Positions 3,791 through 22,625 of a stretch of 64,000 bases of DNA are shown one piece after another; within the stretch, counting starts at the first letter, position 1, and every line of letters begins with the position of its first letter. This DNA comes from Urechis unicinctus (taxonomy: Eukaryota > Annelida > Polychaeta > Xenopneusta > Urechidae), in the NCBI GenBank assembly GCA_034190875.2, contig CM067344.1, forward strand, positions 22,809,606 through 22,873,605. Direction: 5' to 3'. Under the pieces are notes generated by a model, which saw only the letters and a list, made by a program, of their open reading frames with translations, was not told the origin of the DNA and made no database searches. The translations under genes were made by a program, and so were the position numbers.

Positions 3791-4871
3791 TGATGTTACA
3801 GACTGAGTAATTGAATGTGCCATTTAATTATGAACCCACCCACCACCCACATACACACACAATCCGTACACCTCCTTTAACTTCATAGTATTATCAATCA
3901 TTTGAGAAAACCAATTACATGAAAAAATGACGCTCCCTTTGAAACATTATGATATTTCAATTGTCCTTGGTCCAAGCAGTAAGGCATTTGTCAAGGCGGG
4001 AGAACCATTTCCGGTTTACTTCAATACGTCTGACAGCAGAGACAACATCAATCTATAAGAACATAGAGTACTCAGGTTTTAGGTACGGGGACATATCCAT
4101 TTTGGGATGGGTTGTGGCAGCTAATGTTTTTAATGGCTTTAAATGGATGTGAATACGATGTGTGTATTGTGTTGCTGTCATTGACATATACGGGTAGAAT
4201 TGTCTGTAATCAGTAGCCCAAAAGACCAACGTCAGGTTCTATTTATCACCTTGCATGCAGCACTACCCGTACTTAGTTCGAAAGAGCCAGTGATCAGACG
4301 AGGTAATGGACTAGACCTACAGTAGGCCTCTATGTCTAACACTAACAGGTAGTAGTTAGGTCTGTTAACCGGGCTAGTGTAAGGCAGAATATTCTGGAAA
4401 TTTATGGATAAATTCATCTTGAGTCAGATTCAGAGTGGCTCTTCTGCCAATTGATAGACAAGGCCCCTTGTGTATATAGAAAGCGTGTTTGATTGGAGTA
4501 AACACATGATCGAGTAACAACCGTAAACTTTAGATTATGTAAGAAAAGAATTTTCTCTTCTTTCATTTTCAATTGATGCTGCTATGTGCTTCATCAAACT
4601 TAGCACATATCAAGGGTTATTGTTTGTTAACAAGCACGTGTCTATATTAGAACTGATATTTTTGTATACCTACTCTGAAGTCCTGTAGAGCTACTGTCTA
4701 TACAAGTCGCTGGGAGTCGGGTCAGTCATATGTATATTTGTCAAAACCAAATTTTACGGAAGACTTATATTAGTTCCTCTTGTTTCAGATGCTGACTCCT
4801 TGGTTATTTGTTATGCAGACAGGATGAGTCTACGCCCAAGTCACCACAGATGCTCAATCCATTAGTTTAAC

Positions 4872-7800
4872 ATGGGTCACACAGTGTACCTCCTCACTCT
4901 CCTCTTGACATTCAATATGTCACACTCTACGGAGATCATGTCTCAAGAACATGACTGGTATTGCTCTTTTTTCAACAACAGAGCTCCTCAAGCACAGTCT
5001 GGATTAAAGAACTGCACTTGGTTCAAAGAAAACAGCTGCTGTTTACAGCAGGAAATAGAGGCAACGTTTGACACGATGAAGCCGTTAAAAGGAGCTTCTG
5101 TTTCCTGTCAAAATTACATCAACTATTTGATGTGTTATATTTGTGCCCCGAACCAGAATAGCTTCTATCGCAGTGGATATATGACAGTCTGCCTGGAGTT
5201 TTGTGATGCCCTTTATGATGCGTGTAATACGGCTGTGCTCAAAGGGTCTGTTATAGGTGAACTTTATCAAAGTGGTGAAGAATTTTGTAGAAGTCGACGG
5301 TTCAATGTAAACACATCAATGTGTTTCACATTTGATGCCAGCCATGACCCAAGATCATTTGCTTCCATGGCGAGTCATTCCCCTGTGGCTTTATTAAGCT
5401 GCTTGATTATCTATGTGGTAACCTGTATGTGTTGGCCTGGAACTGTTAATGATGCTAAAAGCTGCTCCATGCAATGGATGAGTCCTCAAGCTAAGAAGAA
5501 GGCTGTACAAGTGGAATGTAAATGCAAACCATACCACCTATGCCAATCAGCACAAAGTGTAAAGAACCGTACAGTTAAGAACAATGTTTTGCGACGCTTA
5601 GCATTTCATTCATGGAGTCCTCTGTTTTCTGGTGTGATCTTCTTCCTTCTGATGTTTCACAAATCTTATGGCGAGTCCCCTGATCCTGATATGAGAGAGA
5701 CAGTGGATATCTGGGCACAAAAGTTTTCTGAGGATTTGACAAATTTGGCTACAAATGGGCTGAAATTAACAGAATTGCAAATGCTATATGATGGTGCACA
5801 CTATGTGAAGGAAGACATAAATGGAACGGATAAAGTTGATCAGATACGGGATAAATTAGGTTAAGTAAACAATTCTTGGTTAAAACAGGGATGCCAATTT
5901 TCCGCAGATCCGCGGAAATCCGCGGATTACGTGGCCTTCAGGGTCCATTGGGATCCATTAATCCGCAGGGGGCCTTTGCGGCCCCATGGCCCCAGGCAAA
6001 TTTTCCTCTTTTTTTACAAAATCCTGTTGGCATCCCTGTTAAAAGTTCCAAGGTTCATTTGTCATAGATGTGATAAATCTGGTGGCAATGTCAGTGCCTT
6101 GACATATTAAGATGGTGATTTTTCATTCCGTGTCTTTGTGCTTTTTTCTACTACAGTGGAGTTTTTTAGGAAGAAGCGTACACTGGCTGAGGATCTTGCC
6201 GCCGAGGTGCAGCGTACACACCAGGAGTTTGTTGTGAGTGGCGAACAGGAGCGATGGCGAAATGAGGAGCTGTCTGGCGCGGAGGACCTCTCCATGCTCT
6301 ACTACATGGACACAGATCTGCTACATCGCTTACCTCCCAGCCTCCTCATGTACAACAGGTGAAAGACAGTCAATCGCTCCATCTCCCGTCTATTGGATTT
6401 GCACGCATTCTATCAATTATTTGAATTACCGGATATGTTATATTAGTTATTGTGTTTTATCGTACAGTGATTTTAAAGCCCATGTGATGGAGAACAACAG
6501 TGCTGTTAAAATACCCAATGAGGTGCCAAGCCGTAAAGAGGATGTTATGGAAACTGTTGTTTGGACCTCGTATCTAGATTCTGTTTTCATTAAGAACAGA
6601 CAAAGTGACACCCACTTAAGGTATAAGTTTAGTGTTCTTCTATGTGAAGATTGATCCGTATCTTTTGCATGTACATTATTTGTGTGGGTGCTTATGGGTA
6701 CAGTTAAAGCCAATATCAATTAATCAGTCAGGATTAGTTCTTATGTTATATTTCCTATAAGAGTAATATATTGTATGATATTACTATTACAGGTGGCAGT
6801 ACTTTGGATCCACTTCAGGTATCCTGAGAACTTACCCAGGGCATGAATGGAAGAGGAACTTTGTTGGTTTCCACGAGGACTATGACCCCCGTAGTCGCCC
6901 GTGGTACCAGGCTGCTATATCTAACCCAAAAGATATTGTTATCATTGTTGATGCTAGTTCATCTATGAAGACCATGGGCAGGTCAGATCCTGATTGTACA
7001 AATACAGATTTATTGTATATTATTTCCGCATAATAAACCCCATGGGACTATGATCATATTGAACTGTTCCATATGAGCTTTCCTCGATGATCTCTAGGAG
7101 CAGTAGCTTACGTACTGAGTTTGTTTGGTTAAAAGTGTATGGTTATTGTGTAAAATGATTATATTATACAATTATCTATAAACTGGAAGTGAACATTATT
7201 TGTGATTTTCTGTCATATTAAATACACAGGTTTAACCGTGCCAAGTTGGTGGCTAGAAGCTTGCTATCGACCCTCTCTACACAAGACTACGTGAAGGTCG
7301 TGGTGGCCCGCTCCCCATATTGGACTGAGGATGGCACCCACGTCAACTCCACGCTCCAGACGCTGGGCTGTCATGGCAACCACCTCCTCCCAGTAACGGA
7401 CTCGCATCGCAAGCTCCTGATCTCCTTGATCGATGATCTGGAGCCAGACGGAGCCTCCATTCACACGTGAGACACTTCTTCTCCTCCCCAGCATATCCCG
7501 TTTCTGTCGTGATGGCAAAATGGACACTTAATTTATGGTATGTCTTCAGTGATGCATTCCAAGAGGCTTACGACTATCTCAAGCATCACCAGAGAAGAGA
7601 CAGCAATTGTCACAGTTTTATTGCCTTTATCACAGATGGCGAGGAGTATGATGGCTCCCTGAGGTGCTCTGAAGGTCTGTTATCATTCCTGACACTCAGG
7701 GGTTTCATGTTAATTAAGTGGCTAAGCATCAGCTCACTGGATTTATATTCAACTAGTTACATAACAAAAATTATATAGGATCCCCGTGCATGTGTTGTCT

Positions 7801-10800
7801 TCTCTTTTCGGTTAGTATACCTAAGTTCACTATGTTTTGTAGGATACTACAAATATGATGAGGAGAGCAAGAGGAAATACATTCCTGGTGAGCTGTGTCA
7901 GTTTGATTACAGCGACATACATGGAGTGTGTAGTCAGCCTCGCAATCAGCTGGATTCCAAGGTAAAGCCTAGATCATTAACAAATCACTGTGATGACAGG
8001 TCTCCTTATTACTATAAACTGCTTATCTTCTAGTGTTCAATGTTTAATCACTAGAGAACACTTGTAGTCTTTAACATGGCAATGTGTTCCTTCTAAATCG
8101 CTTCATCGGTCTGGTTAACGCTCACAGATCCACGTCTTCCCGTTCCTGGTGCACGAGACACAGGAACACCTTCCCCTGAAAGATCTCTCTTGTGACCAAC
8201 ACGGCTCTCTCTCCACCGTCAGTAATGACACAGATATCCTCCACCAGATGGAGCCCTACTTTGAATTCTTCAAGTACAACCCGCACACAAGTGCAGCTCT
8301 TTGGACTTCACCATATGTGGACAAAGGAGGCCTGGGTTTAATGATAACAGTATCAGTGCCTGTATACAGCAACATCACAGACAAGTTAGTCACCAATACT
8401 GGTTGATTTGTCATACATGTGTGTTGTACGTGGAGCTATGTGGTGTGCATGCCTGGGGTGATTGTGTGCAGGTTACTGGGTGTGGTTGGGGTCGATGTCC
8501 CCCTGGATCACATTGAGAAGGAGATCGTGTATGATACCTGGGGCACTGCCTACTCATTCCTCGTCGACACGTCCGACATGAGTGCTGTCTTCCATCCCTT
8601 ATCCAAAACTGCTACAGAAGTATGACACACGTTCTTCATTTGCACAAATGTTGTACGAAAAATTTAAAAAAACCAATCAGCCAATGTACATAATGTGATA
8701 ACTCACATACATGAACGAATACTCAGGTGGAGGGAGAAATTTACCCATATACTCCTCTATCATGTATCATTTGAGTCAATATGTATGTGACCTATTTTAC
8801 CACTCTGTCTGTACAGCTCCTTGTTGAGCCTATGTTTGTGCCGCTGACCGATCTAGAAACGCACGAGGGAGAACCCCGTGACTTCCAGCATGTCATCGCG
8901 GGCATAGAGTCGATGAAAGATGGCGAGTACAAGATCACAGAGAACGCAGCTAGGGCCGTGTCGGTACGAAACTCACTCGTTTGGATGCCGACAGAATATA
9001 GCCACTACTTCTATGCTGGTGTGACAGGTAATAATAGGGAGGCACTGACTCACATTCTACCAAACATACCTCATGCAACAACTCGTTTCGTATGTATACA
9101 ACAGGACCTGATGTAAAATTAACTCTGGATATTCCACATTCATCAAACATACCTCATTGAACCACTCGTTTCATATGTATACAATAGGACCTGATGTAAA
9201 ATTCACTCTGGATATCCTGTGTATACATTACCATTGTAATCTTGTATTGTAACTATGTATCAATTTTGATTGTCTATGTTTTTCTCTGGTGAAGGGACCA
9301 GTTTTTCTGTTGTCCTCAACATGGCCCAGGCAGATGAGTCGTACCATGCATTGATAGGACCTGCTGAGGATACACAAGCTACAGCCTACCTACACACGCT
9401 TGGTCTGTATAACTCCAGCAAAGACCATCTGTCTGATGCTTGGGACCAACTGGCACCTGTATCCAATCACTCAAAGTACCCAGGTAAGTCTGTTCCCTTT
9501 TTACTATTTTCATCATTCTTTCATCTATGTACTTGATAGTTGTTATGAATCTGGAAATCCCCTTTCACTGTGGTGTTTCCTTTCATCATTTCAGGTAGAG
9601 AGATAAGTGTCAGGCACTCCACGGTGGTTCTGTCGCCCAGTTCATTCTGTGACCCAGCAGCCTATCTGGAGAAAGACTCGCCTGGCTTCCTGGACACCCA
9701 TCACCACATCAACTCCAGGCTCACCAGTGACAACCTCACCTGTCCCCAGGCTGTTTATCATGGTGTCAGGTGTGTTTTCATTGATAATTTACATATTTAT
9801 CCCATCTTTATCTAGGATGGCTGGTCGTTCAGATGGTATATGTACGGTTGTATGTTGGTTCTCAGATCCCATGTTCAGCTGACACAGCAGATCCAGGAAG
9901 CATGGTTAGGTCGACCATCAGACATACAGGATGAGGTTCTGTGGACCTACGTTGGCACCTCTAATAATGTGATGCGCATCTATCCAGGTGTGCAATTGGA
10001 CAAGGACTTCAGCCCTACAAGGTGTGCTTATTGTTGAATTCTTAGTGGCAGACTAATATTTTGGTCTTTTATTTGTGTATATCAGTTGCAATTATTGTAG
10101 GTAATATGACAAAATACTCTCAATATTCTACAAACATATAAGTTTCTAAGCCATATCTGTTATATTATAGCAGAAATACTTTTAACTTGACCTAGCCCAT
10201 ATTAAAACAGGGTTTAAAGTTGGTTCTATTTACTTTCCAATATTTAATTGCATGTGTAGTTTGTAATTCTGGGTTGTTTCCAGTCGTCCTTGGTTCACTC
10301 TAGCAGAGGCCCACCCAGGCCTAGTGGCCGTGTCCACTCCCTACAGAGACAGCATTCTGTCAGATGGGCCACCTGTTGTCTCACTGTCCCACACAATACA
10401 CAGTCCTAACTACAAATCCATGCCTCCCTGCAAAAGTAGGTCTGGTTTGAAATAGCAGACATTTTTGCATGATTTATAAAAAAACACCCAGGTTATTCAG
10501 TACCTGTAAATTACACAGTAAATTGCAATGTTAATATGTGTGCTGGGGTATTAATTTTTACTTACAGATGTGTGCTGGGATATTTTTTTTGACAAACCGA
10601 TGTGTGCTGGGATATTGTTTTTGACAAACAGATGTGTGCTGGGATATTGATTTTGACTAACCAATGTGTGCTGGGATATTGTTTTTGACTAACCAATGTG
10701 TGCTGGGATATTGTTTTTGACAAACAGATGTGTGCTGGGATATTGTTTTTGACTTACCGATGTGTGCTGGGATTTTGTTTTTGACTAACCGATGTGTGTT

Positions 10801-13203
10801 GGGATATTGTTTTTGACAAACAGATGTGTGCTGCGGTATTGTTTTTGACTAACCGATGTGTGTTGGGATATTGTTTTTGACAAACAGATGTGTGCTGGGA
10901 TATTGTTTTTGACTTACCGATGTGTGCTGCGGTATTGTTTTTGACTAACCAATGTGTGCTGGGATATTGTTTTTGACTTACCGATGTGTGTTGGGATATT
11001 GTTTTTGACAAACAGATGTGTGCTGCGGTATTGTTTTTGACTAACCGATGTGTGTTGGGATATTGACTTCAGACAAACTGGATGTGTGCTGGGATATTGT
11101 TTTTGACTTACCGATGTGTGCTGCGGTATTGTTTTTGACTAACCAATGTGTGCTGGGATTTTGTTTTTGACAAACAGATGTGTGCTGGGGTATTGTTTTT
11201 GACTTACCGATGTGTGCTGGGATATTGTTTTTGACTTACCGATGTGTGCTGGGATATTGTTTTTGACTTACCGATGTGTGCTGGGATATTGTTTTTGACT
11301 TACCAATGTGTGCTGGGATATTGTTTTTGACAAACAGATGTGTGCTGGGGTATTGTTTTTGACTAACCGATGTGTGCTGGGATATTGTTTTTGACTTACC
11401 GATGTGTGCTGGGATATTGTTTTTGACTTACCGATGTGTGCTGGGATATTGTTTTTGACTAACCGATGTGTGCTGGGATATTGTTTTTGACTTACCGATG
11501 TGTGCTGGAATATTGTTTTTGACTTACCGATGTGTGCTGGGATATTGATGCCGTGTCGATGACTGATTATTGACGATCTGCTGCAGTGAGATACACTGTA
11601 CAAAATGATACCGTCGAGTATGAAGCCCAGCCTCAAATGAGCCTCGGCTGTCCCTGCTCTGTCAACTACCACTGTCTATCGCGTCTCTGCTACCGGGGCA
11701 GGTGCTCTGGTAACAGTGTGCTGGCTGTAGTGGGCATGGATGTCTATTACAGCCAACTCAAGGCTCATCTTCACAAGCTGATCCAGCGAGTAGGCGAAGG
11801 ACTCAACTGTGATATGCAATACAGCTGTGTCAATTCTAAGGGGAGGAACGAGACCTGTGAAATGAAGTGAGATTCTAGTTCAGTTGACTTACTTTGAAAG
11901 CTTTCTTACTGTTTCACCGTGGTATATTTCAGTAAAGCACTGGGTCAATGAGTTAAATGTCATTGTGTTATATGTATGTTGTAAATAATGGATATATTTT
12001 AGAAACGTTATGATAATTATTTTTTTTATTACTTTTGAACAGTGATTGTTATTCTATATATCACAAGAAATCCTCAGCATTTGTAGCAGAGTCACTGGCT
12101 TAACCCCGGTGTGTGTCCAGGTGTCATATCGTGAATGACAAGGCCCAGTTTGTGGTGTACGACGAGCTGTCCTCCACTCACCACGTGTCACTTGCATCTG
12201 TGTTTGGTTATGTTTTTAATGAGCTCCTTCAAGATGAAGTGTTTATCCTCCATACGCGCACTGACTACCAGGGCGTGTGTTCACACACAGACAATGCAGT
12301 ACAGGTAACCCAACTATTGTATCCACAACCACAAAACTGGTGGAGATGGTTCCTAATTTGTTAATCACCTTTAGTTACCTTCGTTCAGAAATAGTTTTGG
12401 TTTGAATGATATCAATCTGTTGCATTTATCAAAGAGACTGTCACATACTTCTTGTTTGTAATCGGCCATAAATGGTTGGAATATAATATCTTGTATTGCT
12501 TTTTCAGGATGAGACAGGGACATCATATTCTGACCAGGGGCCCTTCCCTCCATTTCAAAACCACTATAGCTGTATCAAGGAGGTCACATATTACACATCG
12601 AACGTAGCTAAACTTGCTGAAATGGAAGGCGGAATGAAACTAGGGGAATTGAATAATGACCCATGTGCCAGTGGGAAATACTTCTTCAGTGTAATACCGG
12701 GGACAAACCTCTTTCTCCTCATTCTCACAGACTATGTTGACTTGTCACAGACTGCATTCAACTTCAACTGCCACATTCAGAAAAAGTAAGCATATATGTC
12801 GTTTATCAGCGGTTTTATTCAGGAAAAATACTTCTCTTTTCCCATGCTTAAAACATACTGATAATATCAAGACCACACATATACAGAGCTTCCTTGCTAA
12901 TTAATTATGATATATTAGTTTTACAAAGATATAGAATTTTGACTGATAATTTGTTGGAATGTTTTCAGCGTATTCACACCGACATCTACCGAAGTGGATC
13001 GCTTGGTGTGTCCGCGGAAAGCAGTGTATGATATCAGTTACCCTTCCCGCTATCGTTCTTGCCCTCATTTCTCTTACTCCAATGTGTCATGTGCAGCGAG
13101 CAGAGCCCCGGATACTCACGCACCACTCTTACACGCACATGGATATTCATTCTGCTTGATTTATATCTTAACAGTATTGATGATGATAGAAGTCAGCGCC
13201 TAG
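4872..13203 (+). CDS. CACHD1-like VWA/Cache protein with folate-receptor-like N-terminus
   Basis: Membrane-associated protein of the calcium-channel alpha2delta/CACHD1 family, about 1425 aa. Coding exons: 4872-5859, 6157-6358, 6468-6620, 6793-6981, 7230-7466, 7550-7674, 7843-7961, 8128-8384, 8472-8619, 8817-9027, 9295-9483, 9595-9769, 9866-10021, 10284-10435, 11587-11866, 12121-12304, 12508-12785, 12969-13203. They sum to 4278 nt. An in-frame TAG precedes the ATG. Order: signal peptide (1-20), Cys-rich folate-receptor-like domain (about 30-155), hydrophobic stretches (171-188, 249-263), VWA_N, VWA with MIDAS DASSS (501-505), two Cache-type regions (one with GVVGVDV, the next with RIYPG...SRPWF), and a C-terminal hydrophobic tail. 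The Cache half matches CACHD1 better than CACNA2D as I recall them. Known members traffic or modulate channels at the cell surface; the role here is inferred. The Cys-rich module is not in vertebrate CACHD1. The long cytosolic tail of CACHD1 is missing, so the tail may be a GPI signal or short membrane anchor. Confidence 0.85.
5884..6040. mobile_element. Small TIR element (MITE) in intron 1 of the CACHD1-like gene
   Basis: Perfect 14-bp terminal inverted repeats, AACAGGGATGCCAA at 5884-5897 and its complement at 6027-6040, bound a 157-bp non-coding piece. The interior is rich in CCGCGG-type sequence, unlike the AT-rich flanks. Flanking bases are TTAA on the left and AAAA on the right, so the target duplication is unclear. 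No transposase is present. Confidence 0.65.
9062..9225. repeat. 83-bp tandem duplication in an intron
   Basis: Two diverged copies, starting near 9062 and 9145, share aaacatacctcat, atgtatacaa and aggacctgatgtaaaatt at an 83-bp offset. They lie in the intron between coding exons ending at 9027 and starting at 9295 of the CACHD1-like gene. Confidence 0.8.
10538..11548. repeat. 32-bp minisatellite in an intron, about 31 copies
   Basis: A tandem array with a 32-bp unit built on GATGTGTGCTGGGATATTG followed by TTTTTGAC and a variable tail. Three tail classes recur: CTTACC, CTAACC and AAACA. Variants GCGGTATT, GGGGTATT and GGGATTTT are interspersed. The array fills most of the intron between coding exons ending 10435 and starting 11587. 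Long antisense frames run through it only because the unit contains few stops. Confidence 0.95.

Positions 13204-15975: not shown

Positions 15976-22625
<6,650 letters not shown>

Follow-up and report, generated by a model that had tools for sequence, protein, structure and literature searches.

The window analysed here, 64,000 nucleotides of contig CM067344.1 of Urechis unicinctus, carries on its forward strand a gene whose by-eye model, guided by splice consensus and reading frame, has 18 exons with a stop-free frame of 1425 residues; 17 of its 17 introns are of the GT-AG type. The first exon lies in an open frame from 4866 to 5864 (+), in which the coding sequence runs for 988 nucleotides from the ATG at 4872 to the GT donor at 5860. 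The remaining five frames hold 24, 24, 17, 15 and 19 stops across the same stretch. In this single frame, a signal peptide and a folate-receptor domain are followed by two hydrophobic stretches with a basic linker between them, and then by the opening of an alpha2delta-like protein (Table 1). An earlier note on this DNA had proposed the same order of parts, and it is borne out by the open frame, by the Folate_rec and VWA_N profiles and by hydropathy. The exon length given there also stands for the coding sequence (4872-5859), but 4872 is the start codon and the start of the exon itself is unproven. Both hydrophobic stretches exist, although hydropathy shifts their limits from 171-188 to 172-188 and from 249-263 to 248-262: the most hydrophobic 17 residues are 172-188 (KD 2.38), and in the second stretch the top-scoring 15 are 248-262 (KD 1.91). 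GC3 is 0.42 in exon 1 and 0.558 over residues 330-1425.

Several further features accompany the gene. A transcript left unspliced, or polyadenylated prematurely, would end at the TAA at 5862-5864; its product of 330 residues would hold the first module and the linker but break off about 63 residues into the second part. Intron 1 holds a dispersed repeat of approximately 155 nt (5884-6038) with at least 39 further matches in the genome at 90-97% identity (40 of 214 candidates scored). A tandem array with a period of 32, 31.6 copies and 89% matches occupies 10536-11547 in intron 14, which separates exons 14 and 15. An exon of an MCM helicase (MCM P-loop domain, 8e-35) follows downstream at 19149-19433, also on the forward strand. 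A single-sequence AlphaFold model of exon 1 had a mean pLDDT of 35.8 and was not used.

Table 1. Features of the fused gene, in window coordinates
Feature	Position	Strand	Basis or remark
Acceptor-like site ttatttgttatgcag, exon from 4819	4804..4818	+	score 7.2; adjoins 5' repeat copy
9-nt direct repeat GGATGAGTC, 5' copy; possible target-site duplication	4822..4830	+	41 nt before module ATG
Upstream in-frame stop	TAG 4863-4865	+	ahead of Met1 at 4872
N-terminal signal peptide, residues ~1-22, putative	4872..4937	+	core TVYLLTLLLTF; context aacATGg; TAG 4863-4865
Folate-receptor-family domain (cysteine-rich, pocket-type) with short stalk, residues 23-171, intronless	4938..5384	+	Folate_rec; C3 alignment
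Hydrophobic stretch 1, residues 172-188; predicted membrane span	5385..5435	+	KD 2.38; C3 tail alignment
Basic Cys-containing linker, residues 189-247, stop-free	5436..5612	+	11 K/R, 2 D/E
9-nt repeat GGATGAGTC, 3' copy, contains Met203	5476..5484	+	40 nt past hydrophobic tail
Hydrophobic stretch 2 with end HKSYG, residues 248-267	5613..5672	+	C9 signal-peptide position
Alpha2delta/CACHD1-like start within exon 1	5673..5859	+	C9 alignment; donor GT 5860
Exons 2-18, alpha2delta/CACHD1-like part	6157..13203	+	splice consensus, Pfam, PDB matches
Stop codon TAG of the 1425-residue frame	13201-13203	+	read from sequence

Relatives of the two modules

Which proteins does the first module resemble? 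Pfam Folate_rec (PF03024) matches residues 34-156 of exon 1 (E 1.4e-16; 61.3 bits, cut-off 29.8) and residues 34-155 of the joined exons. A genome search with this profile listed four places: the window, one gene each on C5 and C3 (the latter at 40.07 Mb), and a fourth match that stays below the cut-off. By-eye modelling gives the C3 gene four exons and 185 residues, with a signal peptide, a folate-receptor domain and a terminal hydrophobic tail; it matches Folate_rec at 3.6e-18 and, below threshold, the Frizzled-CRD profile (Fz, 0.032). Its protein ends HPLGLMPCVLLVILLNS-stop, and window residues 172-188 align with HPLGLMPCVLLVILLNS. Between the two proteins 62 of 177 aligned residues are identical, with the hydrophobic tail inside the alignment, and 13 cysteines are aligned, out of 15 in window residues 1-187 and 14 in the C3 protein; the identity of the first module to this stand-alone protein is 35-40%. 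The first module together with its tail appears to be the equivalent of the complete stand-alone protein. Because the alignment spans the terminal hydrophobic tail, residues 172-188 of the window protein were most likely once a GPI-type signal at a C-terminus. Unlike in membrane-bound folate receptors, this GPI-signal-like tail is internal in the window protein (residues 172-188 of 1425).

A two-row profile of the first module matches riboflavin-binding protein in the PDB (1.5e-6) and, weakly, Juno (0.088), with no folate receptor proper among these matches. The Juno Arg that follows a Cys faces Asn in the window protein, in a stretch of alignment that scores just -0.2 bits. Judged by its profile matches, the first module belongs with the pocket-type cysteine-rich domains, a class that includes folate receptors, riboflavin-binding protein, NPC1, Juno and HHIP-N (PMC8660895).

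In the second part, the joined exons match Pfam VWA_N (1.8e-27, 96.9 bits, cut-off 34.7), VWA_2 (6.6e-7, 30.4 bits, cut-off 27) and MCP-like_PDC_1 (1.6e-13, 51.5 bits, cut-off 27), while VWA (22 bits, cut-off 23.8) and dCache_1 (31.8 bits, cut-off 45) stay below their thresholds. These matches point to VWA_N, VWA and cache-like domains in the order of the alpha2delta/CACHD1 superfamily. Residues 269-1425 match CACHD1 (8s7c, 6.1e-42) and alpha2delta-1 (2.7e-36) in the PDB. Pfam VGCC_alpha2 (PF08473) is absent from the joined exons at E<=0.1, and the genome search with it listed one place at E<=0.01, on C2; no Pfam family matches window residues 1138-1425 at E<=1. The C-terminus is a short hydrophobic tail of the alpha2delta kind (residues 1409-1425). 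The VWA domain holds DASSS, which we take to fit the DxSxS of an intact MIDAS, as in alpha2delta. The term CACHD1-like, under which this part was first described, is therefore a loose label: it suits the domains and the PDB match, CACHD1 proper does not suit the alpha2delta-kind C-terminus, and VGCC_alpha2 is unmatched as well.

The closest relative found outside the window is a paralogue on C9 (61% over 59 residues; 34 matched places overall), which opens with an ordinary N-terminal signal peptide and seems to end in a hydrophobic tail. Its first coding exon, delimited by eye, is MSCHNTQLILILLSLPAPVPGYYRLTQDEVGTLAGDVQNWAQLIQNYILQ, and the following exon reads LASEGIKRDF. Window VDIWAQKF...LATNGLKL aligns with VQNWAQLI...LASEGIKR of the paralogue, and this VDIWAQ/VQNWAQ alignment brings the C9 signal peptide onto stretch 2 of the window protein. 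The idea that the second hydrophobic stretch, with SYGES, is an ancestral signal peptide thus receives support from a relative, and we infer that stretch 2 is the former signal peptide of the alpha2delta-like protein. The C9 gene is not among the four genome places listed for Folate_rec. The C9 intron (LQ|LASEG) is missing from exon 1 of the window, so introns vary in this family regardless.

Nine places matching the second cache-like region (query approximately 727-786) were listed at C16:42.58-43.03 Mb, a cluster that suggests a tandem expansion of CACHD1-like genes. A protein search for the fused exon (residues 151-353) listed, besides the two places in the window, only two at E ~6, one of which is the C9 paralogue. 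A DNA search for other copies listed, among the 40 of 214 candidates scored, the window itself and 39 places, all of them the intron-1 repeat. The viral and other genome contig collections gave 4 and 25 pattern matches, with no relatives by tblastn. In the open-access literature searched (titles and abstract openings), no report of a folate-receptor/CACHD1 or folate-receptor/cache fusion was found.

Origin of the fused exon

The fusion exists at the DNA level: one stop-free frame crosses both modules and the linker. Because the stand-alone C3 gene matches the first module with its tail, and the C9 paralogue starts with a signal peptide at stretch 2, the joining of two complete secreted proteins head to tail is well supported by sequence comparison. 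This agrees with one of the two options in the earlier note, namely two secreted proteins fused in frame. The other option, an exon with two start sites (Met200/Met203), fares worse for the present day. Both of these codons have T at -3, against A at -3 and G at +4 for Met1, which is preceded by an in-frame stop; their use as starts today is unlikely, and translation presumably begins at Met1. A 13-codon upstream open reading frame (4824-4865), in frame, starts in the 5' repeat copy and ends 6 nt before Met1.

Does the linker belong to the coding sequence? Residues 189-247 include 11 K/R, 2 D/E and 4 Cys. A run of 59 stop-free codons arises by chance in 2.0, 2.7 and 2.3% of simulations from three source sequences (407, 532 and 464 of 20000), and the chance that both parts share one frame is a further one in three. 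Codon usage, modelled on exons 2-18, is uninformative for the linker because it does not set even the folate-receptor domain apart from noncoding sequence: among 970 overlapping noncoding windows without a stop, 44% reach or exceed the score of the linker, and the domain does barely better. A cryptic intron that removes the linker was judged unlikely. A scan with the donor after 5300, the acceptor before 5760 and a length of at least 60 nt gave 118 in-frame stop-free pairs, the best with a weaker-site score of 1.6; 16 of the 17 modelled donors and 14 of the 17 modelled acceptors score above 3.

The first module has no introns, against three in the matching stretch of the C3 gene, which is a relative and not a proven parent. 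At the best-aligned of the three C3 junctions, the window DNA resembles the spliced product. In the folate receptors of amphioxus and human, the GPI site shares the last exon with no more than a portion of the domain (PMC10199209); introns inside the domain are therefore probably old and were lost in the window copy. An RNA-derived copy would have lost its introns in this way. The identity of the module to the C3 gene is too low for a recent copy.

The module lies between two copies of the 9-nt repeat GGATGAGTC. For flank lengths that were chosen post hoc, dinucleotide-shuffled flanks share at least 9 nt in 4 of 400 cases (60 nt), 3 of 400 (80 nt), 9 of 400 (120 nt) and 22 of 150 (200 nt). Across the whole 1.1 kb, 9-nt repeats are common by chance, with four exact 9-mers and longer ones listed. 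No poly(A) tract precedes the 3' copy: the longest run of A between 5436 and 5476 is 4. It would also be surprising for a perfect 9-nt repeat to last since an old insertion. The acceptor-like site ttatttgttatgcag is the best scored in 4600-4900 (7.2, compared with 0.6-11.3 for the 17 modelled acceptors, leave-one-out). When the flanks are joined, they read acceptor, ACAGG, ATG AGT CCT and then the linker frame; the C9 gene starts in a like style, with an acceptor, 14 nt ending in ACAG, and ATG AGT. This layout points to Met203 as the ancestral start of the alpha2delta-like gene, in which case most of the linker would be open since it was already coding.

The following sequence of events would account for these features. 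A folate-receptor-like mRNA would have been copied back into DNA without its introns. The copy would have landed where an alpha2delta/CACHD1-like gene begins, in a GGATGAGTC that held the gene's own start codon; the site before insertion would have read acceptor, ACAGG-ATGAGTCC, without the folate-receptor module. The copy would then have lost its stop codon, so that the GPI-signal-like tail reads on in frame through the linker and the old signal peptide into the alpha2delta-like ectodomain. Taken as a whole, the reading of a chimeric gene with a retrocopied module, an insertion at the start site and a membrane-hairpin product lies, in our judgement, just on the probable side of even.

What else could produce such an exon? 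One alternative keeps the single frame and divides its product: signal peptidase would cut after SYG (residue 267), separating a folate-receptor-like protein with two membrane passes from a free alpha2delta-like protein. Stretch 2 keeps the layout of a signal peptide (RR ahead, a short hydrophobic core, S-Y-G/E), it sits at the position of the C9 signal peptide, and it would presumably insert oriented like an N-terminal signal peptide. Against this, the internalised signal peptide of a trypanosome surface protein went unrecognised (PMC6513831), although this case may not apply behind another signal peptide. We consider the cut unlikely; apart from it, this alternative overlaps the chimeric-gene reading, and the probabilities given here do not sum to one. 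If instead there were two overlapping transcripts, the alpha2delta-like protein would be made from Met200 or Met203 and the fused frame would seldom or never be translated. Met203 does stand at the presumed ancestral start, but the T at -3 of both codons compares poorly with the context of Met1, the hydrophobic core would come only after at least 45 residues rich in K/R (about 7 residues in C9), and the missing stop of the first module would be left unexplained. Such an arrangement is decidedly improbable.

Two adjacent genes linked only by occasional read-through transcription, as in the amphioxus FR/Slit case, would have a published precedent that shares the first module type (PMC10199209). 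In amphioxus, however, the upstream stop is spliced out, whereas the window has no stop and no plausible intron between the modules, which makes read-through highly improbable here. Slightly less probable again is an artefact, in which an assembly error masks a stop or frameshift, or the true first exon of the alpha2delta-like gene lies elsewhere. The sequence does rest on a single assembly, but both modules are intact and in frame, no second copy of the region was among the genome matches listed, and an acceptor directly ahead of SPDPDM is not among the ten best of the exon.

Predicted topology and comparison with known systems

On the chimeric-gene reading, the first signal peptide would make the cysteine-rich module extracellular. 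The old GPI tail, now internal to the chain, would act as a stop transfer and form membrane span 1; the basic linker, from its charges, would stay inside; and the old signal peptide would return the chain as span 2. The VWA/cache part would then lie outside and may be GPI-anchored through its own hydrophobic C-terminus. The charge pattern around the stretches fits the positive-inside rule. We infer a two-pass hairpin with both modules outside, a product predicted to tether a cysteine-rich domain of the small-molecule- or lipid-binding type to a channel- or receptor-modulating ectodomain.

If expressed, the protein would be a clear case of two complete secreted proteins fused with the membrane signals of each kept, the old GPI signal becoming a span and the old signal peptide a return span. 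Moreover, a fold related to the Frizzled CRD would be paired in one natural protein with a relative of CACHD1, which in vertebrates binds that fold in trans (PMC7615972). The pairing in cis would give a testable handle on whether this link is old, convergent or accidental. A more specific proposal is that a retrocopied GPI-anchored receptor gene captured the start codon, that the ER signals were reused as a hairpin and that the pocket-type cysteine-rich domain, related to the Frizzled CRD bound by vertebrate CACHD1, could serve in cis as a built-in ligand sensor, decoy or autoinhibitor of the alpha2delta-like ectodomain; we regard this proposal as quite unlikely.

How does the second part compare with its known relatives? 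Like alpha2delta-1, it has a hydrophobic, GPI-like C-terminus, and its N-terminal region and VWA domain align (query 8-386, residues 276-654) within the whole match of 2.7e-36; in contrast to an alpha2delta subunit proper, it has no VGCC_alpha2 match. It shares VWA_N, VWA and cache-like domains with CACHD1, which is also its best PDB match (8s7c, 6.1e-42). In vertebrates, Cachd1 spans the membrane as a type I protein, and its MIDAS is disrupted (PMC6231325). The window protein, in contrast, ends in a short hydrophobic tail and not a type I transmembrane segment, and its DASSS fits an intact MIDAS. Binding of vertebrate CACHD1 to the Frizzled CRD goes through a C-terminal domain, FZI (PMC7615972). 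The sole stretch aligned near the CACHD1 C-terminal region scores -2.4 bits; the window protein has a different kind of C-terminus, which leaves a direct transfer of the FZI mechanism unsupported.

The first module carries Folate_rec, as do folate receptor, riboflavin-binding protein and Juno, and it differs from the folate receptor family in that its hydrophobic tail is internal and not C-terminal. The Folate_rec gene at C5:26.07 Mb continues into a further domain and, judging from the sequence after Folate_rec, is presumably HHIP-like. The partner domain of HHIP and HHIPL is a beta-propeller, and no internal hydrophobic hairpin is known in these proteins. They resemble the window protein in holding a folate-receptor-type cysteine-rich domain inside a larger protein (PMC8660895).

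That folate-receptor modules can become the N-terminal parts of other receptors is illustrated by amphioxus FrLRR, as described in PMC10199209, on which the following comparison draws. FrLRR likewise joins an N-terminal folate-receptor domain to an unrelated ectodomain, with a GPI site predicted at the very end, and a GPI-anchored stand-alone relative lies on the same amphioxus scaffold (PMC10199209). The partner in amphioxus is a Slit2-N-type LRR, whereas in the window it is VWA/cache. The folate-receptor part of FrLRR is spread over exons 2-4, in contrast to the one intronless exon of the window, and its fusion arises by read-through with the stop spliced out, in contrast to the genomic in-frame fusion seen here. 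A further difference is that the window protein has two internal hydrophobic stretches. Thus, relative to the amphioxus precedent, the window gene differs in its partner, its intronless single exon and the apparent reuse of two ER signals.
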